From positions 1 to 40,083 of IMG/VR virus record IMGVR_UViG_3300037246_001259: a stretch of DNA of 40,083 bases. One strand, 5' to 3'. Shown here in pieces: positions 24,185 to 40,083 of the stretch. The notes below the pieces were generated by a model that saw nothing but the letters and a program-made list of their open reading frames with translations, searched no databases and was not told the DNA's origin. Positions within the stretch are counted from its first letter, which is position 1. The number at the start of each line of letters is the position of its first letter. The position numbers and the translations under genes were made by a program. The stretch is from a virus.

Positions 24185-24859
24185 ATGGCAGGCCAATATA
24201 CAGTACTCAATAGTCGTGGAACAGCGGTAGCGACGATTAACCCTAATCAAACAACGGGTAACAATTTTTCTGTTGAGTTGTTGGGGCAAGCGATTACGCC
24301 CTATAAGCAGATTATTTCTGATACGCAATACCATTTGCTCGAAAACTTTGCTAACTCGCTGGAGCCTACAAATGCGGTAGAGGGACAGTTTTTTTACAAG
24401 GTCTTCACTGATGGAGTGGATGGCCAACCTCATTTCTATAATGGCACCAAATTCCTACCAATGATGGGTGCTGGAACTTCATATGCTGGGAAGTTTGAGA
24501 TGCTTCCTACTGCGACGGCAGTTGATTTTGCAACTGTGGGAATAACAGCAATTTTTACTGCTCCTAACAACGGAACAACGTTCCATCCGACTGGTTTGAT
24601 ATTAATTCCGAATACGTTGACAGCGGTCGTGAGCCCGCCGAACCCACAGTTCAATTTGTTTGTAGGAGCTTCAGAAGATGTATTCTCTACGACAACAGTT
24701 ATTGGGCCAGACGTTGATAAATCTGCATTCTTCTCTATTGGTGGCAACAGACGATTTGTTAAGAACGCAGAAACTCTCAATCTTGAGATAACGTCCGCTG
24801 GTTCTGCGGGAGTCATGACGTATGATGCCGTCTTGCTTGGTTTCAATGACGTAGTATAA
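24185..24859 (+). CDS. Tail-fibre/appendage structural protein, 224 aa
   Basis: AGGAG lies 6 bases before the ATG. Residues about 33-72 (YKQIISDTQYHLLENFANSL, then NAVEGQFFYK ... HFYNGTKF) match a recurring phage tail-fibre segment: a helix ending L-L-E-N-F-A followed by N-x-x-E-G-Q-x-x-Y, normally continuing to a D/N-G-T-x-W/F turn. The rest (about 95-224) is Thr/Val-rich beta structure ending MTYDAVLLGFNDVV. It is first in a run of four appendage genes behind an ATAAATA box, so it may attach fibres to the baseplate. The receptor and the exact position in the virion are unknown. Confidence 0.65.
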   Translation: MAGQYTVLNSRGTAVATINPNQTTGNNFSVELLGQAITPYKQIISDTQYHLLENFANSLEPTNAVEGQFFYKVFTDGVDGQPHFYNGTKFLPMMGAGTSYAGKFEMLPTATAVDFATVGITAIFTAPNNGTTFHPTGLILIPNTLTAVVSPPNPQFNLFVGASEDVFSTTTVIGPDVDKSAFFSIGGNRRFVKNAETLNLEITSAGSAGVMTYDAVLLGFNDVV

Positions 24860-26495: not shown

Positions 26496-27146
26496 ATGAC
26501 AACTAAGGCAACAAGAGACGTTATTAATCTGGGATCATCAACTGACCGTCCCATTATAGACGGAGTTAATATCGACGGAGATAACGGACCCAATTTTACA
26601 ATAGATGGAACTACTATAGGAGCCGGTTTGCCCGGTTCCGCTACTTTTTCCATTGCTACCATCGCGGCTGGTGGGACCCTGACATTCGGTGCAGGTTCCA
26701 GCATGATCATAACAGATACTCCGCTTACGGTCGTTGGCACCTTAAATGCCAATTATGCTGATTTGGCTGAATATTACGAATCTGACGAACAGTACGAACC
26801 AGGAACAGTGGTTAGTATTAATGTGAATGGAGATTCTGAAATTACAGCATCTAAGGGCGATTTAGATAATGATGTTCTTGGTGTTGTTTCAACAAATCCT
26901 GCCTATGTCTTGAATGCTGGGAGCGACGGACTATATTTGCCAATAGCACAGATAGGAAGAGTTCCTTGCTTGGTCCACGGACCAGTGAAGAAAGGAGATC
27001 GAATCGTTCCTTGCTGTGTGGGACATGCTCAAGCGGTCAGTAATAGCGTATCTTCCCGAGATAAGATGATTATCGGAAGAGCACTAGAATCTAATGATGC
27101 CCAAGGCGTGAAGTTGGTTGAAATCACAATAAACACTTTAAAGTAA
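26496..27146 (+). CDS. Tail-fibre protein with GVVSTNPAY-type C-terminal domain
   Basis: 216 aa. The N-terminal half is Gly/Thr-rich with repeated short strands (NLGSSTDRPIIDGVNIDGDN). From about residue 85, YADLAEYYESDEQYEPGTVV is followed by DVLGVVSTNPAYVLN and IGRVPCLVHGPVKKGDRIVP. This domain is frequent at the C-terminus of marine and T4-like phage fibre proteins and resembles peptidase G2-type fibre-tip or chaperone domains. I cannot confirm autoproteolysis. GAGGA precedes the ATG by about 8 bases, and the next gene begins 1 base after the stop. It is likely a fibre tip or a short fibre. Confidence 0.68.
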   Translation: MTTKATRDVINLGSSTDRPIIDGVNIDGDNGPNFTIDGTTIGAGLPGSATFSIATIAAGGTLTFGAGSSMIITDTPLTVVGTLNANYADLAEYYESDEQYEPGTVVSINVNGDSEITASKGDLDNDVLGVVSTNPAYVLNAGSDGLYLPIAQIGRVPCLVHGPVKKGDRIVPCCVGHAQAVSNSVSSRDKMIIGRALESNDAQGVKLVEITINTLK

Positions 27147-27147
27147 T

Positions 27148-28548
27148 ATGGCATATAATGTAGGTGGCTTAATAGAAGCGTCGGATTATAACGGCTTTCA
27201 GTCGGACACCGATGATGTATTCGGGATTGGGTTCTCAGACTTCGGACCCGCTCCCCCCCGTAAGTTCTTTGGCTATGGCCAGACCATGGTTCCAGTAGAA
27301 GCCGCTCCGTTAGTCTCTGTGGCTGTCGATCAGATTATTTCTGCTGCTGAGTGGAGAGTTCTTCTAGAAGCTGTTCAGATTTGCGCAGACCATCAAGGAT
27401 TAGTAGTTGGCCTTCCCCTTTTATCCGAGATTGTAGGTTCTCCAACTTTTACTAAAATTCAATCCTACTCAGGTGTTCCTGAAAGTATGTCTCTTGATTG
27501 GACCGGAATCCCAGGTGCGAGCTTACCGACCGGGGCGACTCCGGGTGCATGGTTTGATATTACATCTACAACCACTACGTATCGTTGCTGGTTTTTTGAT
27601 ACTTCTACAACACCCCCGGCTGTTACTACAGAAACTTTGATTGCCATTCCATTCACTGGTGCTGAAACTGGCCAAGCGATTTCTGATCTTGTTGTTACAG
27701 CAATAGTTACAACAACGGGTGATGCTGATTTTGCTGGATTTGATAATGCTGGTGGTACTACTCGGCTTGTCACTGGAACATTAGTTAAAACAGGTGATGT
27801 AACCGATCCTGTTGATGGTGCCGAACCAACAGGTGCTATTATTTCAAGTACAACCCAGGGTTCTGGTCCAGTGAAAACTGGAAGTTTTCCTACTTCTGTT
27901 GCAGCTATTCGGGTGGATCCTACTGCTGTTGGTAGTGGTTCAACTAGCTTGATTTCCCCGGCACTAACAGATACTAGGGGTGCTGCTTGGTCTAATCAAC
28001 TTACCCACATATTTCAACAGTCTTTTACTAGTGGAGACGCAGCCAGACAGTGGTTTAATTCTGGTGGACAAATAAGAATTCGTGCAACTAGAACTGGTGG
28101 AGCCGGAACTACACAAGATCTTGCGTGGGATTTTGTGTTGGCTGCTATGGGAACTGTTATTTTTGATTTTGATGATACCACCAATACTGGAGCAACCTCA
28201 CTACCAACCACTCTCGGTTACTATGATATGACAACTTCTTTTCAGACAATCTTTTCGATAACCAATGCTCAGGCGGGTGGAGGTGGAGCTTATTCCGCCA
28301 ATAGAATTATTATTCAGGCGAGAAGCGTTCTAGGCCCTACGGGGCCTGATGATAAGGGATTACAGCTTGAGTTTAGAATTGATTATCAGGATATCCATGT
28401 TAGTGGCGGATTCTTTGATCAAGTTAGTGGAACATTCAGGTCTTTTGTAGATTTGAGAGAAGGAGATGTTTTCCTTACTGATCCAGATCCATCAACGTTT
28501 CGTACAGGATTACCGGTAACTACCACCTCGATAGCAACTGGTACTTGA
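27148..28548 (+). CDS. Virion structural/appendage protein, 466 aa
   Basis: The N-terminal 95 residues follow a phage structural pattern: VGGLIEASDYNGFQSDTDDV, GYGQTMVPVE, then IISAAEWRVLLEAVQICADHQG. This Y-G-Q ... I-x-A-x-E-W-x-x-L ... H-Q-G arrangement is one I associate with tail-end structural proteins of large myophages. Residues about 117-241 are a copy of the module that is duplicated in the giant gene. The remainder is Gly/Thr-rich beta structure (RTGGAGTTQDLAWDFVLAAM ... LQLEFRIDYQDIHVSGG). The ribosome site is weak; the gene is probably translated with its upstream neighbour. It is the last structural gene before the modification block. Confidence 0.65.
   Translation: MAYNVGGLIEASDYNGFQSDTDDVFGIGFSDFGPAPPRKFFGYGQTMVPVEAAPLVSVAVDQIISAAEWRVLLEAVQICADHQGLVVGLPLLSEIVGSPTFTKIQSYSGVPESMSLDWTGIPGASLPTGATPGAWFDITSTTTTYRCWFFDTSTTPPAVTTETLIAIPFTGAETGQAISDLVVTAIVTTTGDADFAGFDNAGGTTRLVTGTLVKTGDVTDPVDGAEPTGAIISSTTQGSGPVKTGSFPTSVAAIRVDPTAVGSGSTSLISPALTDTRGAAWSNQLTHIFQQSFTSGDAARQWFNSGGQIRIRATRTGGAGTTQDLAWDFVLAAMGTVIFDFDDTTNTGATSLPTTLGYYDMTTSFQTIFSITNAQAGGGGAYSANRIIIQARSVLGPTGPDDKGLQLEFRIDYQDIHVSGGFFDQVSGTFRSFVDLREGDVFLTDPDPSTFRTGLPVTTTSIATGT
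27496..27870 (+). repeat. Third copy of the GASLPTGA module (466-aa gene)
   Basis: Encodes WTGIPGASLPTGATPGAWFD, then TSTTTTYRCWF, FTGAETGQAISDLVVTAI and DPVDGAEPTGAIIS. It corresponds to the tandem copies at 21991-22763 in the giant gene, with a Cys replacing Phe in the Y-R-F-W segment and a small insertion near the G-D-A-D-F part. Confidence 0.75.
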
Positions 28549-28554
28549 TATACC

Positions 28555-28585
28555 GGCCTACTAATATATCTTTTGTATATAGGCC
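28555..28585 (+). other. Hairpin between structural genes and the modification operon
   Basis: GGCCTA (28555-28560) pairs with TAGGCC (28580-28585). After a 4-base bulge, TATA (28565-28568) pairs with TATA (28576-28579), leaving loop TCTTTTG. No T-run follows, so it is not a classical intrinsic terminator. It could be an RNA processing or stability element just upstream of the start at 28603. A TTG at 28573 lies inside the hairpin and is rejected as a start. Confidence 0.4.
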
Positions 28586-28602: not shown

Positions 28603-28953
28603 ATGGAAAAAGAACGATACGAGAAACTTCTATCTATTACGAATAGATCTGCTTTCTTTTCTGCTAGCGTTCAAAATCTCAAACTAAAATTCCAATCAGA
28701 CTGCGTGTTCGCATATGATGGTCATTTTTTTACTGCCAGTATGGAATTATTGGGGTATTTGAATTTGAACGAGGAAAGGCAAAAAGCTGTTGTAATAGAT
28801 GACCATGGATTTCCTGTTCTGGTCAATCTGGGGCCATACAAGGAGTTTCCGAAAATAGCCGAAACCACATACAACGAAGCTACCTTGTCCTATTTCACAG
28901 AATATGAAAATCTCATAAAGAAAACGGAGGGGATTTTCAATGAGGATGGGTAA
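28603..28953 (+). CDS. Conserved phage hypothetical protein, 116 aa
   Basis: The ATG at 28603 has an AGG 8 bases upstream. The protein begins MEKERYEKLLSITNRSAFFS and contains FQSDCVFAYDGHFFTASMEL. This layout (helix with R/K-S-x-F, then a C-x-F-x-Y/F-x-G-H-F strand-turn) is one I associate with small proteins of T4-like marine phages. No function is known to me. It has no membrane segment. It overlaps the next gene by 14 bases and opens the long operon that follows. Confidence 0.65.
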   Translation: MEKERYEKLLSITNRSAFFSASVQNLKLKFQSDCVFAYDGHFFTASMELLGYLNLNEERQKAVVIDDHGFPVLVNLGPYKEFPKIAETTYNEATLSYFTEYENLIKKTEGIFNEDG

Positions 28954-29818
28954 GGATGCAACTAGAGCCGTTTCGATGTTCGCATTTAACAACGAACTTA
29001 TCGATTATGGCAAATTGGCAATTATGGCGGGATGGCTTGTTAGTAAGAATATGTATTGTGAAGCCTTGCAACTCTTTACTGATGAAAAAACTCTCAATAC
29101 CAATGAAGCAGTATTCAGAAAGATATTTGACAAAATAGTAATCTTGGATCCTAAACTACCGAGAGAAACCGGGACCCTGCGACCCTATTATTCGAACGGA
29201 GAATATAAACAGGCAACCTATTACAATACATACAGGACGGATATTTTTGATCTGACTGAGTTTGATGAAAACATAGTAATTGATGTGGATTATTTGGTGT
29301 TGAATGAGTCTTTGAACAGGGCGTGGAATGCCAGTCATGATCTTCTTATGAATAGAGAGTTCATCTTTGCTTTGGATTTTGAAAAAAATCTTGATAGTCC
29401 AGAACACATAAGGATTAGTGATACGTCAATTCCCATGCGATGGGCTACGGTTGTGTATTTTAAGAAGACTGATGCCACTGCACGGTTTTTTGAGATAGCT
29501 AAGGAAGTATCGGAAAAGTACAGGTACTACTCATTAGTTTATGGGTTTAGGTCTGGGCAATATCGAAATGACTATATTTTTTCTGTAGCTGATCATGTTA
29601 TGGGGGGATATTGCAGTGATGGATATTCTAGACCACTTCCAGATAAGACTATGATTATGACTAAGGAAAAACATACAATTAGTCAGGTGAATCAACAGTT
29701 GATTCATATCCATGATGATAAAAATCGATCATCTTTGTGCCCTACAAACATTCACATTATGAACAAGGAGTCTCTTCAGGACGCTGCTAGGGGGTTTACA
29801 ACAACTTATGGCGTATAA
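28940..29818 (+). CDS. Glycosyltransferase-like protein (DxD type), 292 aa
   Basis: Probable GT-A-fold transferase. The N-terminus RAVSMFAFNNELIDYGKLAI precedes a strand-helix pattern (EALQLFTDEK). FDENIVIDVDYLVLNESLNR has D115-V-D117 at the end of a hydrophobic strand, where metal-binding DxD motifs of GT8-like enzymes lie. Later segments, including MRWATVVYFKKTDATARFFE, resemble the acceptor side of such enzymes. GGAGGGG lies 7-8 bases before the ATG, and the gene overlaps the previous and next genes. The donor sugar and acceptor are unknown. It sits directly after tail-fibre genes, so virion or host-surface glycan decoration is plausible but inferred. Confidence 0.62.
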   Translation: MRMGKDATRAVSMFAFNNELIDYGKLAIMAGWLVSKNMYCEALQLFTDEKTLNTNEAVFRKIFDKIVILDPKLPRETGTLRPYYSNGEYKQATYYNTYRTDIFDLTEFDENIVIDVDYLVLNESLNRAWNASHDLLMNREFIFALDFEKNLDSPEHIRISDTSIPMRWATVVYFKKTDATARFFEIAKEVSEKYRYYSLVYGFRSGQYRNDYIFSVADHVMGGYCSDGYSRPLPDKTMIMTKEKHTISQVNQQLIHIHDDKNRSSLCPTNIHIMNKESLQDAARGFTTTYGV

Positions 29819-30749
29819 CATGAGAAGAAGAGGCTACATAACAGTAGCAGAAAATAGCAAGAGCGGCGACTATCTCAAGATGGCATACGCGCTTGCATTG
29901 AGTTTGAAAGCTACTGGACAAGATCATCCATATCTCACGGTGTGTGTCCCGGAAGGTACTGAGGTTCCAGAAAAGTATGCAACGGTGTTTGATAATGTTG
30001 TAGAAATGTATGGAATGGATAGGTCGTTCCATACTGAATGGAAGGTTTTGAACAAATGGAAGGTGTACAATCTATCTCCCTATGAAGAGACTGTTTTATT
30101 AGACGCTGATATGATATTTCCTCCTGGGGGACAAAATATAGGATATTGGTGGGATTCGATGTGTGAGATTGATATTCAGCCCTGCATGATTCCGAGAACA
30201 TATCGAAATGAACACATCGTAGTGAGCGAGTATAGAAAGAAGTTTCTTAGCAACGAATTGCCTTCGTTATACACAGCATTTTTGTATTTCAAGAAGAACG
30301 AGAGAAATAAAGAGTATTTCGATCTGATTAGGGACGTGACGGATTTTTGGTCTAGGATGAAATACCATCTAGATAACAGGCAGTATCCAATAGAAGCCAT
30401 AAGAGAGTTTGGGGAAGAATATGTGTGGTATCATTTTATGCCCGATTTGCCGGAAAGGTTGTCTGGAGATGTGGCCTTCTCGGTGGCGGCTAAATTGATG
30501 GGGTTGAGATTTCCCAAGTACTCCGTTACTCCGACATTTGTTCATATGAGATCTGGATGTCAGAATTTCGAGGATCCTACTAGGATTGTATGCGAAGATT
30601 GGACAAAATTTTTGCATATAGGATTCAACCATCAATATCTTACTATACAAAACCATCGCCAACTATGGCCGTTTCATTATCATATAAAGAGTTTCATGGA
30701 TGACGAAAAGATAGAAGTACTGGAGAAGATGTATGAGAGTGTATTATGA
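29808..30749 (+). CDS. Second glycosyltransferase-like protein (DAD motif), 313 aa
   Basis: Similar design to its upstream neighbour but only distantly related. GYITVAENSKSGDYLKMAYA at the start suits a nucleotide-sugar fold. WKVYNLSPYEETVLLDADMI carries D99-A-D101 at a strand end, a GT8/GT-A hallmark. FLYFKKNERNKEYFDLIRDV parallels the Y-F-K-K-T/N segment of the 28940-29818 protein, supporting common ancestry. His-rich C-terminus (NHRQLWPFHYHIKSF). The ATG at 29808 overlaps the previous stop; an ATG at 29820 is an equally possible start. No membrane segment is seen, so a cytoplasmic role during infection is likely. Confidence 0.62.
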   Translation: MAYNMRRRGYITVAENSKSGDYLKMAYALALSLKATGQDHPYLTVCVPEGTEVPEKYATVFDNVVEMYGMDRSFHTEWKVLNKWKVYNLSPYEETVLLDADMIFPPGGQNIGYWWDSMCEIDIQPCMIPRTYRNEHIVVSEYRKKFLSNELPSLYTAFLYFKKNERNKEYFDLIRDVTDFWSRMKYHLDNRQYPIEAIREFGEEYVWYHFMPDLPERLSGDVAFSVAAKLMGLRFPKYSVTPTFVHMRSGCQNFEDPTRIVCEDWTKFLHIGFNHQYLTIQNHRQLWPFHYHIKSFMDDEKIEVLEKMYESVL

Positions 30750-31266
30750 GTTCACCAACCTGAATAACACCGAAGCAAGGATAACCAGGATTACACCCGC
30801 GACTCGATTCGAAGGGAATTTTGTGGAAATTTCTGATGAACTTGGCAGGAAGTTTATGGAGGGAAGGGAAATTTCCTCTGATTGGAAACTAGTTTGGGAT
30901 GCTGCTTCTGAAAGAATGATAATGAAGAGAACTGGTGAAGAGACCTTCAATTCTCTCGTGTCAGCATTTATGGAGGTGGGAGAACAAGAAAATCCTGATG
31001 TGATTATAAAAGCTGTACTTCCGTCTCCAAGTGGTGGGCCTGTATTGTTTTCGGTATCTATGTATGAGCCACCAGAGGATCCTAATATGCCTCTGTATTT
31101 TTTCGTTACGAAAAAAGGGGACCCGAATGTACTTTATGCTGAGTTTATGTCACACTACTATGAAGTAGAGAACAAATTCCATTGGCATGATCCGAGAAAC
31201 GAGTTTAGTGTGTTCACAAGGGGCACCAATCTAGTCTGCTCATTGGAAATAGATAATGATGAATAG
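30733..31266 (+). CDS. Unrecognised protein in the modification operon, 177 aa
   Basis: Not recognised. It begins MRVYYEFTNLNNTEARITRI and has three visible parts: a short beta N-terminus, an acidic helical stretch (EETFNSLVSAFMEVGEQENP), then a beta-rich C-terminal half (PVLFSVSMYEPPEDPNMPLY, FHWHDPRNEFSVFTRGTNLV). The last part could be a small cupin-like or beta-sandwich domain, but no metal motif is convincing. GGAG precedes the ATG. It overlaps both neighbours (17 and 11 bases), so it is certainly co-transcribed with the transferase genes. Confidence 0.6.
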   Translation: MRVYYEFTNLNNTEARITRITPATRFEGNFVEISDELGRKFMEGREISSDWKLVWDAASERMIMKRTGEETFNSLVSAFMEVGEQENPDVIIKAVLPSPSGGPVLFSVSMYEPPEDPNMPLYFFVTKKGDPNVLYAEFMSHYYEVENKFHWHDPRNEFSVFTRGTNLVCSLEIDNDE

Positions 31267-32119
31267 ATTATCGGATTACGATGTGTTCCTTCTCAGTTAT
31301 GACGAACCCAATGCGAACGAGAATTATGCCGATCTGAAGGCCAAGTTCCCATTGGCAAAAAGGGTGCATGGAGTGAAGGGATTTGACAATGCTCACAAGG
31401 AGTGTGCTAAGCAATCCAGTACGAGGCGGTTTATAACCATTGATGGAGACAGCCGAATCAATGATGGGTTTCTTGATCAAACCATACCAGAAGAGTTGGA
31501 TAAGAGTCGAAAGGTATTATCGTGGGATGCACGAAATGTGGTAAACGGTTTGGTGTATGGTAATGGGGGTCCGAAGTGTTGGACCAAAGAATTTGCGCTA
31601 GAGATGAAAACACATGAACATGCTGAGACAGATTCTGAGAGGGTGGACTTTTGCTATGATGACGACTATAAACATATTCGTGGGGAGTGGACAACAACAT
31701 ATCCAAACGGAAGTAGAGAACAAGCATATAGAGCAGGGTTTAGAGAAGGAGTAAAAATGGCCCTCCATCAGGGGGTTAAAGTTAAACCTATAGAGAGGCC
31801 GAGTGTAATACAGTCTTCCAACAACATGAAGTTGAGTGTTTGGTGTTCTGTTGGCGCAGATGTGGAAAATGGATTTTGGTGTATGTTTGGTGCTAGGACT
31901 GGAGCATATTTGACAACAACGGACGATTTTGATTTGAGTAGTATATCGGATTTCGATTCTATGGAACTGAGATTCATGGAAGCAAATTTGTTAGAAGGAG
32001 AAATGGAAGAAACCTTTGTAGGATTGGGTAAATTACTTGAAATCAGATTGGACATCTCTGTAGCAGATCTGGATTCCAGAGGGTCACGATTGTTCAAGAA
32101 AATGATGGGGAGTAAGTGA
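31256..32119 (+). CDS. Glycosyltransferase-like protein, paralogue A, 287 aa
   Basis: FLLSYDEPNANENYADLKAK (from residue 11) and RVHGVKGFDNAHKECA are followed by RFITIDGDSRINDGFL with D63-G-D65. That is the order of a nucleotide-sugar-binding strand, conserved helix and DxD of GT-A enzymes. VVNGLVYGNGGPKCW follows. All these blocks recur in the 34485-35189 protein, so the two are paralogues. This copy has about 85 extra C-terminal residues (from about 200), acidic and beta/alpha mixed. It starts at overlapping ATGATG (31256-31261). The stop overlaps the next start (TGATG). The activity is inferred from fold signatures. Confidence 0.6.
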   Translation: MMNRLSDYDVFLLSYDEPNANENYADLKAKFPLAKRVHGVKGFDNAHKECAKQSSTRRFITIDGDSRINDGFLDQTIPEELDKSRKVLSWDARNVVNGLVYGNGGPKCWTKEFALEMKTHEHAETDSERVDFCYDDDYKHIRGEWTTTYPNGSREQAYRAGFREGVKMALHQGVKVKPIERPSVIQSSNNMKLSVWCSVGADVENGFWCMFGARTGAYLTTTDDFDLSSISDFDSMELRFMEANLLEGEMEETFVGLGKLLEIRLDISVADLDSRGSRLFKKMMGSK

Positions 32120-32226
32120 TGTTGAAGAAGTGGGTACAGAATATAGTAAAGTGGTATAAGCATCGAAAGAAGGTTCGGGCAATGAGAAAGAGGTTGGGCA
32201 ACGATGAAGATCCATTCACGTACTGA
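32119..32226 (+). CDS. Very small basic protein, 35 aa
   Basis: GGGGAG lies 6 bases before the ATG, which overlaps the previous stop. The peptide starts MLKKWVQNIVKWYKHRKKVR and ends in DPFTY. It has 13 Lys or Arg and three Trp/Tyr on one amphipathic helix. I associate small peptides of this type, Lys/Arg/Trp-rich and ending K/E-D-P-F-x-Y, with marine T4-like phages, which with the strong ribosome site argues that it is real. Function unknown; membrane or nucleic-acid binding is possible. The next gene starts 23 bases before it ends. Confidence 0.6.
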   Translation: MLKKWVQNIVKWYKHRKKVRAMRKRLGNDEDPFTY

Positions 32227-32962
32227 ATATCATGTCTATGCGGTGGGTGATTCTTTCACCTACGGAGACGAACTTGCGGAGGGGGAGGTTCGCGGTGTAT
32301 GTATTGACAATGAGTATAGATTAAAGCATGTGTACCCGACCAGGGTGGCATATCATCTTGGTGTGCCTCCAGGTAATATTATTAATGATGGCCTTGGTGC
32401 AGGTTCTAATTGCAGATGTGTTAGAAGGGCTATGAAGTTCACATCTGATTGGATGGAACGAGGGAATGATCCAACCAAGCTGTTGGTGATTATTGGATGG
32501 TCTATGCCCAGACGAACAGAATTCTACCAATCTCCAGACCGAGAAGGAATGGAGGACGAAGAGTGTTATATAAAATATTACCAAAATTTCTTCGATACAA
32601 AAGACGTTTCCGCCAAGTTCATGAGACTGTATGGGGACCATTTTGTTAGTGCTGGAGAATCGAATTCTAGATACAGCACCCATTTAGTCACGATGCAATC
32701 TTATTTGAAAGAATATGGATTTCCATATTTCTTTTTCAATTCTTGCTGGAAAGCAAGACCAGACAAAACGCAAAATTCTTCGGTGTTTAAACTGGTTGAT
32801 AGAGATAGGTTTTTCAGATTTGATGATCGTCTTGGCACCTTGTCGAATTATTTGACTTTTGAAAAGAAGTTAGAGATGCTTCCTCGTGGTCATCCAACCG
32901 AGAAGGGACATGATGTATGGGGGAAGATAATTGCGGATAAGTTTCTGGAGTTGGATCTATGA
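32204..32962 (+). CDS. SGNH-hydrolase-like protein, 252 aa
   Basis: Block I is YAVGDSFTYGDEL with candidate nucleophile Ser17. GLGAGSNCRCVRRAM matches the block II Gly/Asn region. LLVIIGWSMPRRTEF occupies block III. GHPTEKGHDVWGKIIAD near the C-terminus gives the catalytic His (H230) of block V. SGNH proteins remove or transfer acyl groups such as O-acetyl on sugars. The usual Asp before the His (D-x-x-H or D-G-H-P) appears as Arg (PRGHP), so catalysis may be altered or use a dyad. It lies between the two paralogous transferase genes and is coupled by overlap to the carbamoyltransferase (ATGA, 32959-32962). Confidence 0.68.
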   Translation: MKIHSRTEYHVYAVGDSFTYGDELAEGEVRGVCIDNEYRLKHVYPTRVAYHLGVPPGNIINDGLGAGSNCRCVRRAMKFTSDWMERGNDPTKLLVIIGWSMPRRTEFYQSPDREGMEDEECYIKYYQNFFDTKDVSAKFMRLYGDHFVSAGESNSRYSTHLVTMQSYLKEYGFPYFFFNSCWKARPDKTQNSSVFKLVDRDRFFRFDDRLGTLSNYLTFEKKLEMLPRGHPTEKGHDVWGKIIADKFLELDL

Positions 32963-34485
32963 GTAAAAAGAATGATGAAGTGATATGGGGAATCAGCGCT
33001 GGATTCCATGATGCTTCTTTGTCTGTGATTTATGATGGACACATTGTATTTGCTGGTCACTCGGAGAGATATAGTGGAGTCAAAAACGATAAATTTTTGA
33101 ACCCGGCGATAGTCAGAGACGCAGAGTTGTGTCAGAGATGGTATCACAAGCCCCCCGCTCCCGATGTTGTTGTTTATTATGAAAACCCGTTTTTGAATTG
33201 GACCAGACGATTGTACGCAGGACAACGTAGGGGGCCAAGTGTATATCAACATATTAGAGATCTGGGTCTCATGAAAGAGAATATGGGAATACAGTACTAT
33301 GAACAAAAATTAGTCACTGTAGGGCACCATGAATCCCATGCTGCTGCCGGTTTTTACACCAGTCCGTTCGAAGAGGCTGCAATTGTGGTGATTGATGCTA
33401 TAGGTGAATGGGATACTACAAGCGTTTGGATTGGTAAAGGCAATTCTATGAAGAAGATTTGGTCTGCGAAGTACCCAAACAGTATGGGGCTGTTGTATTC
33501 TGCTTTTACCCAACGATGTGGATTCAAACCAAACGAAGAAGAGCATAGTCTTATGGCGTTGTCAGCGTATGGCGTTCCGAAATATTCGGATGCTATAAAG
33601 AGGGACTTCATCGAGCTAGGAGAGGGGCCTGAATATACACTGAAGCAGAATGTTCATACGGGTATAGGAAATTGGATGCCAGCAGCAGATCCGACAGACT
33701 TAGCAGCTAGTATACAAAAAGTCTTGGAGGAATATTTAGAGCGGTTGTTTGATTGGGTAGAATATACAACCAAACAGCAGAACCTTGTTTATATGGGAGG
33801 GGTCGCACTTAATTGTGTAGCCAATTCTAATGTTTTGTTGAATGGAGTTTTCGATGATGTGTGGATTATGCCTAATCCGGGAGACGCGGGATCATCGTTG
33901 GGTGCCGCTTTAGCATATTTGGGAGAACATGTTTCCTGGGAGAGTCCGTACTTGGGAGCCGAGCCGTGGGGAGAAATAGAAGACGGTTATAAAGAGGACT
34001 CTATTCGTGAATTACTGGCCGGAAATCCTATAGCGTGGACTTGGGGAAGGGCAGAGTTTGGTCCGAGGGCTCTTGGTAATAGGTCGTTGCTTATAGATCC
34101 CAGGTTCAGAACATCTAGGCATAAGATGAACAAAATAAAACAACGACAATCGTTTCGCCCGTTTGCGGCATGTGTATTAGAGGAAAGGGCTAGCGAGTAT
34201 TTTGATATGGGTAAGAGAACATCTTTGCCATATATGCAATATGCGGTGAAGGTTAAGAAACCTAGAGAATTATCGGCGGTAGTTCATATAGATAATACCT
34301 GTCGAGTCCAAACAGTAACTCGTGACCAGAATCCCCACTTAGCTGATCTATTAGAGAGGTGGGGAGAAGCAACGGGGTGTTCAGTTTTGTTGAATACCAG
34401 TCTCAACACAAAGGGCCAGCCTCTTATCAATAATGATGACCAAGCAAAAGCGTTTGCTAAAGAACATGGAATACGACACTACTAA
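32959..34485 (+). CDS. O-carbamoyltransferase of the NodU/CmcH/TobZ family
   Basis: 508 aa with both domains. The Kae1-like N-terminal domain shows GISAGFHDAS, the metal motif VGHHESHAAAGF (H123 and H127), VVIDAIGEWDTTSVW (D146), MGGVALNCVANSNVLL and PNPGDAGSSLGAAL (D309). The C-terminal YrdC-like domain shows GRAEFGPRALGNRSLLIDPR, RQSFRPFAACVL, IDNTCRVQTVT and LLNTSLNTKGQPL. These enzymes move carbamoyl from carbamoyl phosphate, via an adenylate, to a hydroxyl of a sugar or antibiotic; some phage members carbamoylate hydroxymethylcytosine in DNA. It is slightly shorter than usual at the C-terminus but keeps all the listed motifs. The acceptor here is unknown; the transferase and hydroxylase neighbours suggest a glycan or hydroxylated target. 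Confidence 0.9.
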   Translation: MSKKNDEVIWGISAGFHDASLSVIYDGHIVFAGHSERYSGVKNDKFLNPAIVRDAELCQRWYHKPPAPDVVVYYENPFLNWTRRLYAGQRRGPSVYQHIRDLGLMKENMGIQYYEQKLVTVGHHESHAAAGFYTSPFEEAAIVVIDAIGEWDTTSVWIGKGNSMKKIWSAKYPNSMGLLYSAFTQRCGFKPNEEEHSLMALSAYGVPKYSDAIKRDFIELGEGPEYTLKQNVHTGIGNWMPAADPTDLAASIQKVLEEYLERLFDWVEYTTKQQNLVYMGGVALNCVANSNVLLNGVFDDVWIMPNPGDAGSSLGAALAYLGEHVSWESPYLGAEPWGEIEDGYKEDSIRELLAGNPIAWTWGRAEFGPRALGNRSLLIDPRFRTSRHKMNKIKQRQSFRPFAACVLEERASEYFDMGKRTSLPYMQYAVKVKKPRELSAVVHIDNTCRVQTVTRDQNPHLADLLERWGEATGCSVLLNTSLNTKGQPLINNDDQAKAFAKEHGIRHY

Positions 34486-35189
34486 TGTATGATCTTGTTT
34501 TTCTAAGTTATGATGAACCAGAAGCTGACGAGAATTATGCACATCTTGTCTCACGGTTTTCTCATGCAAAGAGAATACATGGGGTGAACGGAATAGTTCA
34601 GGCTCATAAGGAAGCGGCTAAGGTATCTCTAACTGAGTATTTCTGGGTAGTAGATGGAGATAATATCATACAGGATGATTTTGATTTTTCATTCAAATGG
34701 GACAGACCGAGGGATGGTATTATTAAGGTCTGTGTGTGGGAGTCCATAAACGCGGTTAATGGGTTGCGTTATGGTAATGGGGGAGTCAAGCTGCTTCCGA
34801 AGCATTCTGTTTTGTCTTATCCCATGGAAAGGTTTGAAGCCCGTTTAGATTTTGCTACAACGCTTGGGGGAGTATTTCATTACGAGAAGACTCCTGCGTC
34901 CATAAACAGATTCAATACCAGTGAATTTCATTCTTGGCGTGCTGGGTTTCGGGAGGTGTTCAAATTGAGAACGAAGATGGATACCATGATAAGCAAGCAG
35001 GAATATAAGGATATCAGAAAATGGATTGCTGCATGGTTGACGGAAGGGAAAGAAGCGGAATATGGAACTTTTGCGATTGATGGAGCTAGCGATGCTATAG
35101 ATTGGTTCGGAAGTAACCCGAGAAATCCAGAAAGGATAAACGATTTCTCTTTTTTGAAAGAGGTGTGGGAGAAAAAGTATGGCTACTGA
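34485..35189 (+). CDS. Glycosyltransferase-like protein, paralogue B, 234 aa
   Basis: LVFLSYDEPEADENYAHL (from residue 4), KRIHGVNGIVQAHKEAAK, FWVVDGDNIIQDDFDF (D57-G-D59) and NAVNGLRYGNGGVKLLP align block by block with paralogue A (31256-32119). The C-terminal SWRAGFREVFKLRTKM also matches paralogue A's YRAGFREGVKMAL. It lacks the C-terminal extension of A. The start overlaps the carbamoyltransferase stop (TAATG). It is probably a nucleotide-sugar transferase or related nucleotidyl enzyme acting on the same pathway as A. The donor and acceptor are unknown. Confidence 0.62.
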   Translation: MYDLVFLSYDEPEADENYAHLVSRFSHAKRIHGVNGIVQAHKEAAKVSLTEYFWVVDGDNIIQDDFDFSFKWDRPRDGIIKVCVWESINAVNGLRYGNGGVKLLPKHSVLSYPMERFEARLDFATTLGGVFHYEKTPASINRFNTSEFHSWRAGFREVFKLRTKMDTMISKQEYKDIRKWIAAWLTEGKEAEYGTFAIDGASDAIDWFGSNPRNPERINDFSFLKEVWEKKYGY

Positions 35190-35778
35190 AAAGAAAACGA
35201 TTTCTATGCAAGTAGATGCGTGGTCTGATAGTCAGATAGCATCTAAAATATGGTTGTGTCAGTACTTGGAATTGCAATGTGAAGGTATTCAGTATACTAG
35301 ACACGATCATCGGATAGCGGTATATGCGGGATGGTATGGAGTTCTTCCTTTCATATTACTGACTCGTGGTAATATAAAATATGTGCAGTGGGTTCGTTCA
35401 TTGGATATTGATCCTGCCTGTGAAGCCATCGCTGATGAAATCAATTGTCATTGGGTCATGAAAGATTGGAAGTTTAAGGCAGTTACGAAAGATGTCAATG
35501 AGCAAAAATGGACTAGGCCGGGTAATGATCCTACGATTGTCATAAACACTTCTACTGAGCATTTTGACAAGCAAGATTGGTTCTTCAAGATTCCAGAAGG
35601 AGTGCTGGTGGCTCTTCAGAGTACAGATATGGAACATGAAGAGCATGTGAACACAGTAGACAGTTTGGATGAATTCAAAAATAGATATCCGTTGTCGAAG
35701 TTTGAGTATTGGGGAGAGACGAAGTTTTCATACCCAGATAAGGAATTTCGTAGATTCATGGTGATAGGAAGAAAATGA
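35179..35778 (+). CDS. SAM-dependent methyltransferase-like protein, 199 aa
   Basis: Rossmann-type pattern: strand plus glycine loop IAVYAGWYGVLPFILLTRG (motif I, about 46-64), acidic strand end WVRSLDIDPACEAIAD (about 71-86), a D-V/I-N segment (AVTKDVNEQKW), then motif IV PTIVINTSTEHFDKQDWFF (about 118-136). The motif I loop is atypical, with A-G-W-Y-G in place of G-x-G-x-G. The protein ends SYPDKEFRRFMVIGRK. GGGAG lies 7 bases before the ATG. The target is unknown; in this operon a sugar or protein hydroxyl/carboxyl is as likely as DNA. No DNA-methyltransferase motif such as N/D-P-P-Y/F is present. Confidence 0.62.
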   Translation: MATEKKTISMQVDAWSDSQIASKIWLCQYLELQCEGIQYTRHDHRIAVYAGWYGVLPFILLTRGNIKYVQWVRSLDIDPACEAIADEINCHWVMKDWKFKAVTKDVNEQKWTRPGNDPTIVINTSTEHFDKQDWFFKIPEGVLVALQSTDMEHEEHVNTVDSLDEFKNRYPLSKFEYWGETKFSYPDKEFRRFMVIGRK

Positions 35779-36434
35779 AGGATTACATAATCATCGATCT
35801 GGTTGATTCCGGGGATAGCTATATCTGGGACAAGTTTCGAGATACCCTTAGATTCATTCAGGAAGAAGACAACATCAGGAACAAAAAGAATTATGAAGGG
35901 TTGGAAGCCCTTGTAGACAAACATATCTCTTTCACAGTTCTCATGGATCCTGACACCGATGATGTTGTGGCGTTCTCTGGTCTATATGGTCAGATATATC
36001 CTGGAAATATGGCCCGTGCAGCCAACAGGGCGTACTACAAGCCCGAAATACGGTTCAAGGGTATGGTACCCACCAAAGGGACGAGAAAGCTCGACAGGGG
36101 CCTTATAGCGCGTTATATGCTACCTTTCCAAATTGAAGAAGCCAGAGCTAGAAATTTGGATACGGTGTTTGTGTCTGTAGAGTTTGCGCATAGAAGAAAA
36201 AGTCTAGAGACTATTGTCCAGTGGATGAATAAATATCATGACCATGATGGAGAATGGGAGTTACTGGATAATATGTATTTTACCTGTCCGACACAGTATT
36301 CTGGGTGTTATGAGACCAAGAATTGTTGGCAGAATGTAGCAGTTATGAATCTGACGGAAAAGCCCCTATGTTTTCCGTTAAAGGTGATGACTATGGGTCA
36401 ATGGAAGTACAAGTTTGGAGTGACAAAGAAATGA
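35775..36434 (+). CDS. GNAT-like acetyltransferase, tentative, 219 aa
   Basis: Tentative. The first 50 residues hold an acidic helix (YIWDKFRDTLRFIQEEDNIR). FTVLMDPDTDDVVAFSGLYG (about 53-72) looks like the substrate strands of a GNAT fold. IARYMLPFQIEEARARNLDT (about 111-130) could be the motif A helix and strand, followed by VFVSVEFAHRRKS. The canonical R/Q-x-x-G-x-G/A acetyl-CoA loop is not visible, so the assignment rests on layout. The C-terminus has Cys residues in CPTQYSGCYETKNCW. It overlaps the methyltransferase-like gene (ATGA) and the first oxygenase gene (ATGA at 36431-36434). Confidence 0.45.
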   Translation: MKDYIIIDLVDSGDSYIWDKFRDTLRFIQEEDNIRNKKNYEGLEALVDKHISFTVLMDPDTDDVVAFSGLYGQIYPGNMARAANRAYYKPEIRFKGMVPTKGTRKLDRGLIARYMLPFQIEEARARNLDTVFVSVEFAHRRKSLETIVQWMNKYHDHDGEWELLDNMYFTCPTQYSGCYETKNCWQNVAVMNLTEKPLCFPLKVMTMGQWKYKFGVTKK

Positions 36435-37084
36435 AGGTACCAGAGCATATCAAGGGTGATGGACCAGATAGAAAACTTCTTCCCAATTATCATAAGTTGG
36501 GAGATGTGAATGATGTCGGTTCATTTGAAGCGTTTCGAGCAAGTGTAAAACGGCAGGTGGATAATTGGCCTAATCGTAATGACATCAATAATTCGGCAAT
36601 GTATGAGATTGCTCAAACTTGTCCTCTCAAAACGTATTTTCCATCAACATATCGGCAACTTCTTTTCCAGCAAACCAATCCTACACTCGAAAGAGAGAAA
36701 ACAGAATTTGATTACATAGGATATACAGTTGAGTCTATCTACAATGAAATCGGAAAAATTCTGTATGAGCTTATACCAAACCATTTCCGAGCTAGGGTGG
36801 CTATACTTCCTCCCGGCGAAGTATTGGATTGGCATATCGATTCGAACACGAGCTATGCTTGTAGAGTGCAAATTCCTATTATTGGATCTTGTCATTGGCA
36901 AATTCGAAGAAGAAAAGAGGTAGAATCTAAGGTTTTGCAACCAGGGGAGGTTTGGTTTATGAATACTGGATTTTCTCACAGGGTAGAAAACAACGGAACC
37001 GAAGATAGGGTAGTTCTTTTAGTGGGGTGTAGATTTAATGATATCAAAGATCGATTTCCAGAAGACGTTATTTCCAGGACGTAA
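36431..37084 (+). CDS. Fe(II)/2-oxoglutarate-dependent oxygenase-like protein 1 (Asp/Asn hydroxylase type)
   Basis: 217 aa. LPPGEVLDWHIDSN gives the metal motif H135-x-D137. WFMNTGFSHRVENNGTEDRV gives the distal H183 and R193 ten residues later, the cofactor-binding Arg spacing of the aspartyl/asparaginyl beta-hydroxylase group. The jelly-roll strands between them (CRVQIPIIGSCHWQIR) fit. The reaction in known members is hydroxylation of Asp/Asn or small substrates using Fe(II), O2 and 2-oxoglutarate. I start at the ATG at 36431, which overlaps the previous stop and has GGAG 10 bases upstream. A longer in-frame ATG at 36323 would overlap the previous gene by 112 bases. Confidence 0.78.
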   Translation: MKVPEHIKGDGPDRKLLPNYHKLGDVNDVGSFEAFRASVKRQVDNWPNRNDINNSAMYEIAQTCPLKTYFPSTYRQLLFQQTNPTLEREKTEFDYIGYTVESIYNEIGKILYELIPNHFRARVAILPPGEVLDWHIDSNTSYACRVQIPIIGSCHWQIRRRKEVESKVLQPGEVWFMNTGFSHRVENNGTEDRVVLLVGCRFNDIKDRFPEDVISRT

Positions 37085-37865
37085 TCTGGAGAAAGAATGG
37101 AAATCTAGATACGGAACATATGAACTGCCTCCGCTGGTTGAATTGACCAGCAAGAGGGTGGATGCTCACGCTCTTCTCGATGAATACAATACCTACAAAG
37201 GCCGAGAGCATTCTATTTTCGAAGATGAAGTTATAGGATATGCCTTTGGTTTGAGATACTGCACGCCAGAAGAATATTGGCCAATGGTTGTACATCTTCC
37301 AAGTGACGAAGCAGTCAGGATCCAGAAGGAGAGAGACGAAGAAAGGGGGATTCCCTGGGCTGATCACCAAAGAACCCTTAGCGTGAGACAGCGACTTCGT
37401 TCGGTAATAAAATTGAATGAAGATTATGATCCTCTCATTGACGAACGCAATTATACGAAAATGCCGAAGAATCTTAGAGGCGGATATATCGAAGCCATTC
37501 TCAATATGTTCAGAGCTAATACCGTTAGAGCAAGATTTGTAAGGCTTCGACCAGGGGAAAAACTGGTTAACCATATCGACTATAATCCCAAATACTGCCT
37601 GAAGGCGCATATACCCATGACTGCACAGTCTCTGTCCTATATGAAGTTCTTTCATAAGGATCTAGGGGAAACTACGTATAGGATGAAGCCCGGTAGAATC
37701 TATGTTATAAACAGCGGTATTAGGCATGAAGCAATTAATGAGAGCTTGGTGCATGAGAGAATTCATCTAGTTATTTCATTGGACGGACAGCAAGACATAT
37801 TTTCCTATGTGGGAACAAACGGGTTCGCCTATGAGCTTCCTAGAAAACGGCAAGCATGGGAATAA
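37038..37865 (+). CDS. Fe(II)/2-oxoglutarate-dependent oxygenase-like protein 2, 275 aa
   Basis: VRLRPGEKLVNHIDYNPKYC gives H179-x-D181. VINSGIRHEAINESLVHERI gives H230 and R241 (spacing 11). This is the Asp/Asn hydroxylase arrangement, with a characteristic R-x-x-P-G-E strand before the HxD. The N-terminal 150 residues are an extra charged domain not seen in the smaller paralogues downstream (RVDAHALLDEYNTYKGREHS). The gene overlaps the end of oxygenase 1 by 47 bases; the ATG at 37038 is the only reasonable one. The substrate is unknown. It is the longest complete member of the array. Confidence 0.75.
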   Translation: MISKIDFQKTLFPGRNLEKEWKSRYGTYELPPLVELTSKRVDAHALLDEYNTYKGREHSIFEDEVIGYAFGLRYCTPEEYWPMVVHLPSDEAVRIQKERDEERGIPWADHQRTLSVRQRLRSVIKLNEDYDPLIDERNYTKMPKNLRGGYIEAILNMFRANTVRARFVRLRPGEKLVNHIDYNPKYCLKAHIPMTAQSLSYMKFFHKDLGETTYRMKPGRIYVINSGIRHEAINESLVHERIHLVISLDGQQDIFSYVGTNGFAYELPRKRQAWE

Positions 37866-37869
37866 AATA

Positions 37870-38478
37870 ATGCATTGGCTGGATCCAACATATATATGTA
37901 AACCAAAGAAGTTGCACACCCAACTCGTTCGTGGGGGTTCTCATAGCGTGGTCTCTCTTTTTTGTAATGTCGCACATGATCTTAAACCAGAGGAATACCG
38001 ACAAGGATTCAAAGTGGAAACCCCTCTTCCCAAAACATTTTGGTATAAGATATCAGAAGATGGCGAACATTTGGATGAAAGGAATTTGTACTATCATGTG
38101 CAGGAAATTATGAAAGCTAACGGAATTCCGATAGAGAACGATGAAGGGAAGTCCACTTATGCTTCATTGATTTACAAAATGGCTCCGAAAACAGCCATAA
38201 ATATCCACAAAGATTGGGTTAGAAAAACAGTAGTTCTTTTTCCTTTTTTGAACTGTGAAGAGTCCTTTCTTCATATTCATGAAACTGAAGATGGTCCACC
38301 GATCAATAGTATCCCATTTGTTAAAAATGAAACGCTCCTATTTGATAATTCAACTATATGGCATAGTGGAGAGAATAGAATTGACAAGGAGCGATATTGC
38401 TTCTGCATATCGTTTTTTGATCATGACTACGAGTTTTTGAAGGAGAGATTGAATTATGTACATCATGCCCGTTCCTGA
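37870..38478 (+). CDS. Fe(II)/2-oxoglutarate-dependent oxygenase-like protein 3, 202 aa
   Basis: INIHKDWVRKTVVLFPFLNC gives H113-x-D115. STIWHSGENRIDKERYCFCI gives H165 and R175 (spacing 10). The core is the same minimal double-stranded beta-helix as in the next two proteins. I chose the ATG at 37870 (GGGAA about 8 bases upstream, 4 bases after the previous stop). Two upstream in-frame ATGs (37807, 37831) would overlap oxygenase 2 by 59 or 35 bases. The last 23 bases overlap the following gene. The substrate is unknown. Confidence 0.72.
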   Translation: MHWLDPTYICKPKKLHTQLVRGGSHSVVSLFCNVAHDLKPEEYRQGFKVETPLPKTFWYKISEDGEHLDERNLYYHVQEIMKANGIPIENDEGKSTYASLIYKMAPKTAINIHKDWVRKTVVLFPFLNCEESFLHIHETEDGPPINSIPFVKNETLLFDNSTIWHSGENRIDKERYCFCISFFDHDYEFLKERLNYVHHARS

Positions 38479-39088
38479 ATTGCGTCTTGACGCCGATACT
38501 AAAAACACTATTCTGGAGCTTGTGAAGAACGAAGAACGCTGGTGGAGAAGGGGAGCAAGAAATGATGAAGAACAAACTATGGCTTACTGGCATTTATTAA
38601 GGCCAGATGAAAAGATCTTTCAGATGCTGAGCCCATTATTTTCTTTGGACCATAGCGAATTCTTGAATCTGAATATCACAATGGAACTTCATAGATTCCA
38701 GCCGAATAGAGAACTTGAGCCCCATAAGGATCTATGTCGTAATGCAGTGATTATATATCCCATTTTTGGACATGAAAAATCTACCTTTCATTTCTGTGAG
38801 GGTCCCAGCAACGATTACAAAAAAATGTTCTCAATCACATATAGAGACACCCCACTGTTAATGGACAGCAATAAATGGCATAGCATGGTTCATGAGGCTG
38901 ACGAAGAACGAATATCGCTAACGTTTTCATTTCATAACGAATACAATTTTGATACGGTTTCTGCATTGTATAAAGCTAAGAGACTGTTTACCTGTCAAGA
39001 AATGAATGATTATCAATTTCCTAGTGAAGAGCCAGATCCTTATGGAGAATATGATGTCAGGAAGAGTCCTTACCCGGAGAGTTTCTAA
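38456..39088 (+). CDS. Fe(II)/2-oxoglutarate-dependent oxygenase-like protein 4, 210 aa
   Basis: ELEPHKDLCRNAVIIYPIFG gives H90-x-D92. NKWHSMVHEADEERISLTFS gives H142 and R152 (spacing 10). AAGGAGAG lies 8 bases before the ATG, the strongest ribosome site in the array. It is a close relative of the next protein: both start M-Y-I-M/L-P-V/L-P-E-L and both have a C-terminal R/Q-L-F-x-x-Q-(D/E) ... F-P segment. The stop overlaps the next start (TAATG). The substrate is unknown. Confidence 0.73.
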   Translation: MYIMPVPELRLDADTKNTILELVKNEERWWRRGARNDEEQTMAYWHLLRPDEKIFQMLSPLFSLDHSEFLNLNITMELHRFQPNRELEPHKDLCRNAVIIYPIFGHEKSTFHFCEGPSNDYKKMFSITYRDTPLLMDSNKWHSMVHEADEERISLTFSFHNEYNFDTVSALYKAKRLFTCQEMNDYQFPSEEPDPYGEYDVRKSPYPESF

Positions 39089-39669
39089 TGTACATATTAC
39101 CTCTTCCAGAACTAACATTGAACCCTGAATTTGAAGAACGTTTGGTGCATAATATTTGCAATCTGCCAGATGCTGCGTGGACTACAACGCCATCAGGGCT
39201 TACTCAGGTGGCCGAAGTCCTGGGTATAGAGTTGGAAATGTTTAGAAACAAATTCACCAAGGAGGCTAATGCATTGATAGCCGGGTTTAGGTACTTCAGG
39301 ATATTTCCGAAAACAACTCTTCCTACTCACAAAGACAAGACTAGGAATTCTGTGTTGTTTTTTACTTTGAACCCGAAAATAGACCACGTATTGAATTTCA
39401 AAAACGGAAGACGCGGAGAGACTATCTTGTCTTTTAGGTATTCCAATGTTCCTACACTTGTAGATGTCAAGATGTGGCATGAAGCCGTGAATAATTCCTC
39501 TGAGTATAGGATGGCCATTATAGCGTATTCGAACTATATGGGTGGAGGGTTTGATGAAATGGAAGAACTTTACAGAAGTCAGCTATTCTTGAGTTGCCAG
39601 GATCCTTTTGATTCTGTTTACAAGTTTCCTTGGCACAACGAGGATCGTGAAGGGTATACTGATGACTGA
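39088..39669 (+). CDS. Fe(II)/2-oxoglutarate-dependent oxygenase-like protein 5, 193 aa
   Basis: KTTLPTHKDKTRNSVLFFTL gives H81-x-D83. KMWHEAVNNSSEYRMAIIAY gives H131 and R141 (spacing 10). It is the tandem paralogue of protein 4 (shared N-terminus MYILPLPELTLNPEFEERL and similar C-terminal region). GGAG precedes the ATG. It overlaps the next gene by 8 bases. All residues needed for Fe(II) and 2-oxoglutarate binding are present, so both duplicates look active, not decaying. Confidence 0.73.
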   Translation: MYILPLPELTLNPEFEERLVHNICNLPDAAWTTTPSGLTQVAEVLGIELEMFRNKFTKEANALIAGFRYFRIFPKTTLPTHKDKTRNSVLFFTLNPKIDHVLNFKNGRRGETILSFRYSNVPTLVDVKMWHEAVNNSSEYRMAIIAYSNYMGGGFDEMEELYRSQLFLSCQDPFDSVYKFPWHNEDREGYTDD

Positions 39670-40083
39670 GGAATTCATTGTTTGGAATCCTTCGGTGATA
39701 GTTGATATCAATAAGCTGCAAAAATGGTATGAGCAGTTGAAGGAAAAACGAGATTCTGTAGTTAAGACCTATGATGATAAGTTCGGAAACAGAATGTTCG
39801 AACCTGGATCTGAAGGATACGGATGGTCTCTACATCATGTAAAATTTTCTAGAGACGAAGTGCAACCGTTCGATACTTATGAGCAATTGAATGTTCCCAT
39901 TCTCAGAAATGCCGGTACGGTAGAAGAGAATGGGGTGACTAGAGCAACTGAACATTCGGATTACACGAAACGAACTGATTGTTGTTTTGGGTATGCGGAA
40001 GAGATTCTTGATTTTTTCGACAAGAGTTACAAAGGGGTTGTATGGGCGTTTAGACCTGGATATCGTGTTAAGAAGGATAATAT
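39662..40083 (+). CDS. Probable sixth oxygenase-like protein (3' partial)
   Basis: The frame is open from the ATG at 39662 to the window edge (140 complete codons) and overlaps the previous stop by 8 bases. It begins MTEEFIVWNPSVIVDINKLQ. Its last visible residues, GVVWAFRPGYRVKKDN, match the position and layout of the strand just before the HxD motif in oxygenase 2 (ARFVRLRPGEKLVNHID). The metal-binding His and Asp would lie just past the window end, so the assignment is inferred from this strand and the position in the array. Confidence 0.5.
   Translation, partial: MTEEFIVWNPSVIVDINKLQKWYEQLKEKRDSVVKTYDDKFGNRMFEPGSEGYGWSLHHVKFSRDEVQPFDTYEQLNVPILRNAGTVEENGVTRATEHSDYTKRTDCCFGYAEEILDFFDKSYKGVVWAFRPGYRVKKDN

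Follow-up and report, generated by a model that had tools for sequence, protein, structure and literature searches.

Which molecule is modified by the enzymes encoded directly behind the tail-fibre genes of the virus record IMGVR_UViG_3300037246_001259? The record comprises 40,083 bases, and the analysis covered this 40-kb piece of the genome only (hereafter the window). Between position 28603 and the window end at 40083, 16 genes were found, all on the + strand and overlapping at 13 of their 15 junctions. This is in agreement with the initial annotation of the region, in which about 16 nearly all overlapping genes on one strand had been described as a set of sugar-transferring and tailoring enzymes.

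The transferase genes of this cluster were found to belong to a fixed cassette of uncultured viral contigs, newly described here, in which the fibre genes FIB3 and FIB4 are followed by G1, GT8a, GT8b, U200 and GT2. The gene order in the window is the order of the cassette, with the following members:

26496..27146, + strand: FIB3, tail-fibre protein with a Peptidase_G2-like C-terminal chaperone region (FIB3 hidden Markov model (HMM) 8e-32; phrog_22593/6427/19602)
27148..28548, + strand: FIB4, protein of the fibre block with a fixed linkage to the transferase core and candidate acceptor (FIB4 HMM 2e-77; linkage)
28603..28953, + strand: G1, conserved small protein encoded between the fibre and transferase genes (G1 HMM 1.5e-25; alignment)
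28940..29818, + strand: GT8a, glycosyltransferase-like protein with a DVD motif (cluster HMM 1e-81; paralogue of GT8b)
29808..30749, + strand: GT8b, glycogenin-like glycosyltransferase with a DAD motif (family profile against the PDB: glycogenin-1, ~1e-6)
30733..31266, + strand: U200, fast-evolving core protein with no assigned function (independent HMM 3.6e-13; alignment)
31256..32119, + strand: GT2a, glycosyltransferase-like protein with a DGD motif (GT2 HMM 1e-106; DxD invariant in the family)
34485..35189, + strand: GT2b, glycosyltransferase with a predicted GT-A fold (AlphaFold pLDDT 91.6; Foldseek)

For the alignment-based scan with the GT2 family, the best 80 loci of at least 589 relatives were used. 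Since the scans keep the best 80 loci, the frequencies given here describe close and middle-distance relatives. G1 was located directly upstream of the GT8-GT8 pair in 44 of the 45 pairs with upstream sequence, and FIB3 or FIB4 was found within four genes of the pair in 33 of 36. The reverse scan seeded with FIB4 identified G1, GT8a, GT8b, U200 and GT2 downstream in all 65 evaluable loci (23/23 non-redundant) and the scan seeded with G1 the full core in all 56 loci (12/12 non-redundant), both counts being biased toward cassettes by the definition of the FIB4 and G1 families from cassette members. For scanning, tighter subsets of the FIB4 and G1 alignments were used, the broad ones being too variable. 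Gene clusters were derived from BLAST and separate HMMs, since jackhmmer labels may drift on low-complexity fibre genes. When the loci from all seeds were pooled and reduced by clustering GT8b at 80% identity, G1 was present in 71 of 72, the fibre genes in 61 of 63, U200 in 75 of 76 and GT2 in 76 of 76 cases. The initial annotation had placed the cluster directly behind tail-fibre genes and suggested a search for the same gene order in other phage genomes. The core order was found there, with the transferase core fixed behind one fibre family in searches from both directions, and the fibre link is much stronger than could be told from the window sequence.

FIB4 and GT8b were both present or both absent in 8 cellular or metagenome-assembled genome (MAG) assemblies (both in 3) as well as in 129 Bdellovibrionales assemblies (both in 1). 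On the Bdellovibrionales MAG contig JABGUH010000022.1 (L309, 7061-19513), the order FIB4-G1-GT8a-GT8b-U200-GT2 was observed together with radical-SAM genes beside pheT-, trmD- and RNase HII-like genes. This contig is apparently cellular, no phage structural genes were recognised near the cassette, and domestication or misassembly may explain the arrangement. A cellular origin of the cassette was considered after this locus and set aside, with only one of the 129 Bdellovibrionales assemblies carrying the cassette. Protein searches with single representatives in 50,697 phage records gave no match to the core transferase, radical-SAM and FIB4 families; the GT8b profile detected one weak relative, in phage C48C1. 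That its carriers have not been cultured may be why the cassette has gone unstudied.

Minimal and long forms of the cassette could be distinguished. Of 124 loci, which are partly redundant, 95 have exactly five codirectional genes counted from GT8a, the order in those listed being GT8a-GT8b-U200-GT2-GT2. The core is accompanied in the minimal loci by fibre genes, G1 and U200 only, and since these loci stop after the five genes, the transferases alone suffice. Minimal cassettes of L181 (14176-18685) and also L207 are followed by an opposite-strand ThyX gene (Thy1 4e-43) and a pair of DUF2201/VWA and MoxR-like ATPase genes; a similar AAA and DUF2201 pair was observed in L001, a 376-kb IMG/VR contig related to the window. 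Long loci carry extra genes inserted between GT2a and GT2b and after GT2b. Among 55 non-redundant long loci, the twitch radical-SAM family was identified in 40, a methyltransferase-like protein in 18 and a PF05118-type oxygenase in 6, in addition to several SGNH families, GT-like proteins, UDP-glucose dehydrogenase and epimerase. The window fits this long plan, with the SGNH and carbamoyltransferase genes between the GT2 genes and the genes from 35179 to 39662 after GT2b. The twitch-type radical-SAM family dominates the accessory part of the relatives (165 proteins in 65 loci, e.g. L067 15454-16794); a tblastn search of the 50,697 phage records with one representative gave no match, and no radical-SAM gene was recognised in the window. 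It had been proposed that hydroxylation comes first and glycosylation follows. This order is unsupported, since oxygenases are an optional part, absent from most relatives, which nevertheless keep the transferases.

The four glycosyltransferase-like proteins expected from the initial annotation correspond to two GT8-like (28940, 29808) and two divergent GT2-like (31256, 34485) proteins. Assignment to GT8 by GT8 similarity and a DxD motif holds directly for 29808, for which the family profile compared with the PDB was built from 38 relatives, and for 28940 solely as the paralogue of 29808. GT2a and GT2b form one divergent family with an invariant DxD, which is called GT2-like because the cut-off of Pfam Glycos_transf_2 was not reached (best 0.012, in 6/34 members); the family profile gave no match in the PDB. 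A GT-A fold with DxD is indicated for GT2b by the predicted model (TM about 0.4) and for GT2a by homology to GT2b. The top Foldseek matches of the GT2b model, which are remote because the TM is about 0.4, are GT-A sugar transferases and sugar nucleotidyltransferases, comprising SunS/ThuS, WrtF, RmlT, PBCV-1 A64R and ppGalNAc-T. These neighbours include enzymes that glycosylate proteins or peptides (SunS, ppGalNAc-T) and the PBCV-1 capsid glycosyltransferase. The U200 profile that matched the window copy had been built without the window sequence. For U200 and G1, no Pfam or PHROG match was obtained where tested, and G1 is possibly a chaperone or adaptor. Membrane segments were not predicted in any of the core proteins. 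Relatives of the GT2 family in Photorhabdus and many Streptomyces (L263-L264, L266, L270-L283) adjoin other transferase-like genes where inspected, and they possibly represent the cellular source of the family or a second function.

Upstream of FIB3, three further genes were identified, the last two of which belong to the fibre block:

23534..24142, + strand: phrog_11259 protein, conserved first gene 5′ of the fibre block (PHROG 5e-50)
24185..24859, + strand: fibre-block protein with a FIB3-type N-terminus (phrog_14394 virion structural protein 8e-07; FIB3 HMM 8e-14)
24875..26485, + strand: tail-fibre protein (Mtd_N 4e-05, just below the cut-off; phrog_9648 tail protein 8e-4; 41% identity to the L001 copy)

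The phrog_11259 family was also found 5′ of fibres in L136 and has homologues in the phages Atu_ph07 and Phosso. FIB3 is identified as a fibre protein by its match to phrog_19602, annotated as tail fibre protein, and PHROG assigns the L106 copy of FIB3 to the tail/collar fibres. The C-terminal domain of FIB4 (about 245-440) was modelled mostly with confidence and is common to only a few BFVD phage proteins.

The remaining genes of the cluster encode the accessory enzymes of the window:

32204..32962, + strand: SGNH-type esterase/acyltransferase, DUF6071 (PF19547 5e-21; GDS and HPTxxGH motifs)
32959..34485, + strand: NodU/TobZ-type O-carbamoyltransferase (PF02543 3e-48, PF16861 3e-52; PDB NovN/GdmN/TobZ; phrog_1601)
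35179..35778, + strand: methyltransferase-like protein, fused to GT2b in L001 (family HMM 1.6e-60; Methyltransf_25 0.006 in the L001 fusion)
35775..36434, + strand: unassigned protein (no Pfam, no PDB support)
36431..37084, + strand: OX1, 2-oxoglutarate (2OG)-Fe(II) oxygenase of the Asp/Arg hydroxylase family, ATGA start (PF05118 1e-8; HID...H...R)
37038..37865, + strand: OX2, 2OG-Fe(II) oxygenase (PF05118 4e-8; HID...H...R)
37870..38478, + strand: OX3, 2OG-Fe(II) oxygenase-like (HKD...H...R, spacing 52; hhalign motif alignment, low probability)
38456..39088, + strand: OX4, 2OG-Fe(II) oxygenase-like (HKD...H...R, spacing 52; hhalign motif alignment, low probability)
39088..39669, + strand: OX5, 2OG-Fe(II) oxygenase-like (HKD...H...R, spacing 50; hhalign motif alignment, low probability)
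39662..40083, + strand: incomplete gene, possible sixth oxygenase (open at the window end)

The SGNH-like acyl enzyme and the carbamoyltransferase had both been recognised correctly. In the former, GDS was found at position 15 and HPTEKGH near 233. The latter is full-length, with both the Carbam_trans_N and the Carbam_trans_C domain and intact HHxxH, FGPRALGNRS and LNTSLN motifs; a scan of IMG/VR seeded with it found no relatives. In the phage collection, the nearest carbamoyltransferase detected (42.5% identity) is that of the Marine virus AG-345-D19 (L013, 3906-7953), where it is preceded by two SGNH-like genes and followed by a radical-SAM-like gene, which recalls the SGNH-carbamoyltransferase pair of the window. 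For the proposed methyltransferase, the fusion in L001 lends weak support, with no Pfam match of the window copy and no match of the family profile in the PDB. The assignment of 35775 as a GNAT acetyltransferase was dropped, since neither Pfam nor the PDB gave a match to GNAT. Of the five or six hydroxylases announced, five carry the complete motif (HxD, an H 48-52 residues later and an R ~10 beyond), and the sixth runs off the window end. OX1 and OX2 pass the PF05118 cut-off and OX3-OX5 score below it; hhalign lines up the oxygenase motif positions at a low probability of its own (5.6%).

Taken together, we consider the locus to be a tail-fibre maturation cassette, with a probability of roughly 60%, in which the core transferases attach sugars to the neighbouring fibre and the remaining enzymes decorate the glycan or the fibre. 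This reading builds on observed gene content, active-site motifs, glycosyltransferase similarity or fold for two families, fibre linkage and a placement of the accessory genes as in the relatives. Four cytoplasmic transferases, two of them GT8-like and two GT2-like, would build a short glycan on a fibre protein encoded just upstream, most likely FIB4 and/or FIB3, and G1 and U200 would act as helpers that bind the fibre or the enzymes. The SGNH protein could then acylate or deacylate, the carbamoyltransferase carbamoylate and the methyltransferase-like protein methylate the product, and the five or six 2OG oxygenases could hydroxylate the glycan or the fibre, such that tailoring would diversify the tip that meets the host. 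From the genomic position we infer the fibre as acceptor, which is the simplest reading because the core has no membrane segments, minimal loci hold only fibres, G1 and U200 besides the transferases, and FIB4 and GT8b co-occur in the assemblies searched. Likewise conjectural are the sequence of the reactions, the kind of sugars and the benefit, which may lie in host-range tuning, shielding from surface enzymes or receptor mimicry. More tentatively, the cassette may represent a dedicated and widespread system for the post-translational modification of tail-fibre tips, in which a fixed core of fibre and four transferases is supplemented by lineage-specific chemistries (radical SAM, 2OG oxygenation, carbamoylation, methylation and acylation).

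Several points weigh against fibre maturation. FIB4 has no annotated homologue and its fold search gave no match among solved PDB structures, so its place in the fibre is deduced from position. Neither an acceptor site nor a modified protein was identified. The Streptomyces and Photorhabdus relatives of the GT2 family do not stand beside fibre genes where inspected. In addition, co-location can also arise because fibre loci gather host-interaction genes, and the accessory tailoring set could act on another target.

Such a gathering is assumed if the enzymes remodel the surface glycan (O-antigen or capsule) of the infected host and thereby block superinfection, the adjacency to the fibres reflecting a shared host-interaction island. 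As the published view of glycosyltransferases in the host-recognition clusters of pelagimyophages and cyanophages (PMC7029224, PMC7824862), this remains the main rival, and the sugar-nucleotide genes (UGD, epimerase) of some long relatives would fit it. However, the core has no predicted membrane protein such as a flippase, polymerase or anchored acyltransferase, the minimal loci with transferases, G1 and U200 only are locked to one fibre family, and the assemblies searched have either both GT8b and FIB4 or neither, which renders host-surface modification unlikely. A patchwork, in which the core acts on the fibre and the carbamoyltransferase and the oxygenases of 36431-40083 are passengers with other targets, e.g. 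ribosomal or host proteins, is favoured by the rarity of oxygenases in the relatives and by PF05118 genes elsewhere in the L001 record. The continuous overlap of the window genes and the recurrence of the SGNH-carbamoyltransferase adjacency in the marine relative L013 make it improbable.

Hypermodification of DNA, with hydroxylated bases being glycosylated or carbamoylated, has a precedent in a phage NodU/TobZ-type enzyme that is a proven 5-hydroxymethylcytosine (5hmC) carbamoyltransferase (PMC8670742), and an opposite-strand ThyX gene adjoins minimal cassettes. The enzyme of that MetaGPA study belongs to the same superfamily but is paired with thymidylate synthase/dCMP deaminase genes, whereas that of the window is paired with glycosyltransferases, as are the carbamoyltransferases on unmodified contigs (PMC8670742). 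Since genes for a thymidylate synthase/dCMP hydroxymethylase-like, a TET-like or a dCMP deaminase protein were not identified within the 40-kb window and the core is locked to fibres, DNA is a highly improbable target. Equally little can be said for a small-molecule pathway resembling secondary metabolism and lacking a virion role: it is one option raised by Iyer et al. for phage S-SSM6a (PMC7824862), and the accessory genes look like antibiotic tailoring sets, but no scaffold-building enzyme was recognised and the core persists without accessory genes.

The statement that no phage system with this combination had been described was too strong. Islands of this kind are already known, since pelagimyophage (PMC7029224) and S-SSM6a (PMC7824862) examples have been published, with other interpretations and with transferases that are non-homologous where tested. 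The host recognition cluster of pelagimyophages and cyanomyophages is a variable island of the structural region in which tail fibres occur together with radical-SAM genes and with glycosyltransferases of the GT8 and other types (Zaragoza-Solas 2020, PMC7029224). It resembles the window in uniting tail fibres and glycosyltransferases in one island, and its authors propose a modification of the host O-chain (PMC7029224). In contrast to the fixed order FIB3-FIB4-G1-GT8-GT8-U200-GT2, that cluster was reported to be non-syntenic (PMC7029224), and the GT8b and FIB4 profiles detected no homologue in the pelagimyophage HTVC008M, in S-CAM1 or in Atu_ph07 and Phosso. The pelagimyophage boundaries are VrlC and gp14; the window has a giant structural protein (phrog_10938) upstream and ends before the far boundary. 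The jumbo cyanophage S-SSM6a shares a carbamoyltransferase, 2OG oxygenases and a methylase with the window (Iyer 2021, PMC7824862), and differs by a halogenase and HAD phosphatases, neither of which was recognised in the window. Its cluster was read as capsule decoration or secondary metabolite, with no fibre link described in the available part of the report (PMC7824862).

Phage transferases of the mycobacteriophages Che8 and Rita glycosylate capsid and tail tube (Freeman 2023, cited in PMC11256854, PMC12619734). These targets differ from a fibre, no tailoring set is reported in the available parts of the citing papers, and the likeness to the window is one of description. The same holds for the Moraphages, large phages of aquatic habitats whose core genes include four orthogroups of putative glycosyltransferases (Perez-Hernandez 2025, PMC12619734), which recall the four families present here and for which the available text describes no fibre linkage. 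In PBCV-1 A064R and mimivirus L230/R707, a GT-A domain fused to or adjoining a methyltransferase, a hydroxylase plus glucosyltransferase acting on a structural protein and a glycogenin paralogue were described (PMC9614988). These are viruses of eukaryotes, and their systems may not be homologous to that of the window. The mimivirus targets are collagen-like, whereas the window fibres lack Gly-X-Y runs, and a collagen-like fibre substrate was rejected. For the fixed core of fibre and transferases, no description was found in the open-access literature searched.

The window derives from a T4-type phage akin to Atu_ph07 and Phosso. Its left part is a T4-type tail module, in which a gp6-like baseplate wedge protein shows ~33-34% identity to Sinorhizobium phage Phosso, Agrobacterium phage Atu_ph07 and other jumbo phages. 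It is followed by the 3,665-aa structural protein (phrog_10938) and then by the fibre genes, an order found also in Atu_ph07 and Phosso. In L001, homologous fibre genes are followed by the same gene order as in the window. At least three radical-SAM genes and unknown proteins were observed directly behind a homologous tail-fibre gene in Phosso (L016, 13272-21015) and Atu_ph07 (L017, 16909-23647), where the radical-SAM genes occupy the slot of the window cluster. The listed TTG starts at 28573, 36323 and 37807 are better taken as ATG at 28603, 36431 and 37870. No terminator-like site was found in the gap between FIB4 and G1. Promoter-like and terminator-like matches across the cluster region were at chance level, and a single operon is unproven. 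T4-type late promoters (TATAAATA) occurred at or below chance frequency, with none in the cluster. The GC skew was ~0.2-0.33 across the genes 29808-35778, compared to ~0.05-0.15 in the genes for fibres, baseplate and oxygenases.

The host range of a phage is usually deduced from nothing but the sequence of its fibre proteins. The results suggest that these phages chemically coat the fibres with which they grip their hosts. Should linked enzymes glycosylate and tailor the fibre tips in many large phages of aquatic habitats, the functional molecule would be overlooked by sequence-based prediction of host range, by expression of fibres in E. coli and by receptor assays, and receptor-binding proteins would be glyco-diversified and not only sequence-diversified.

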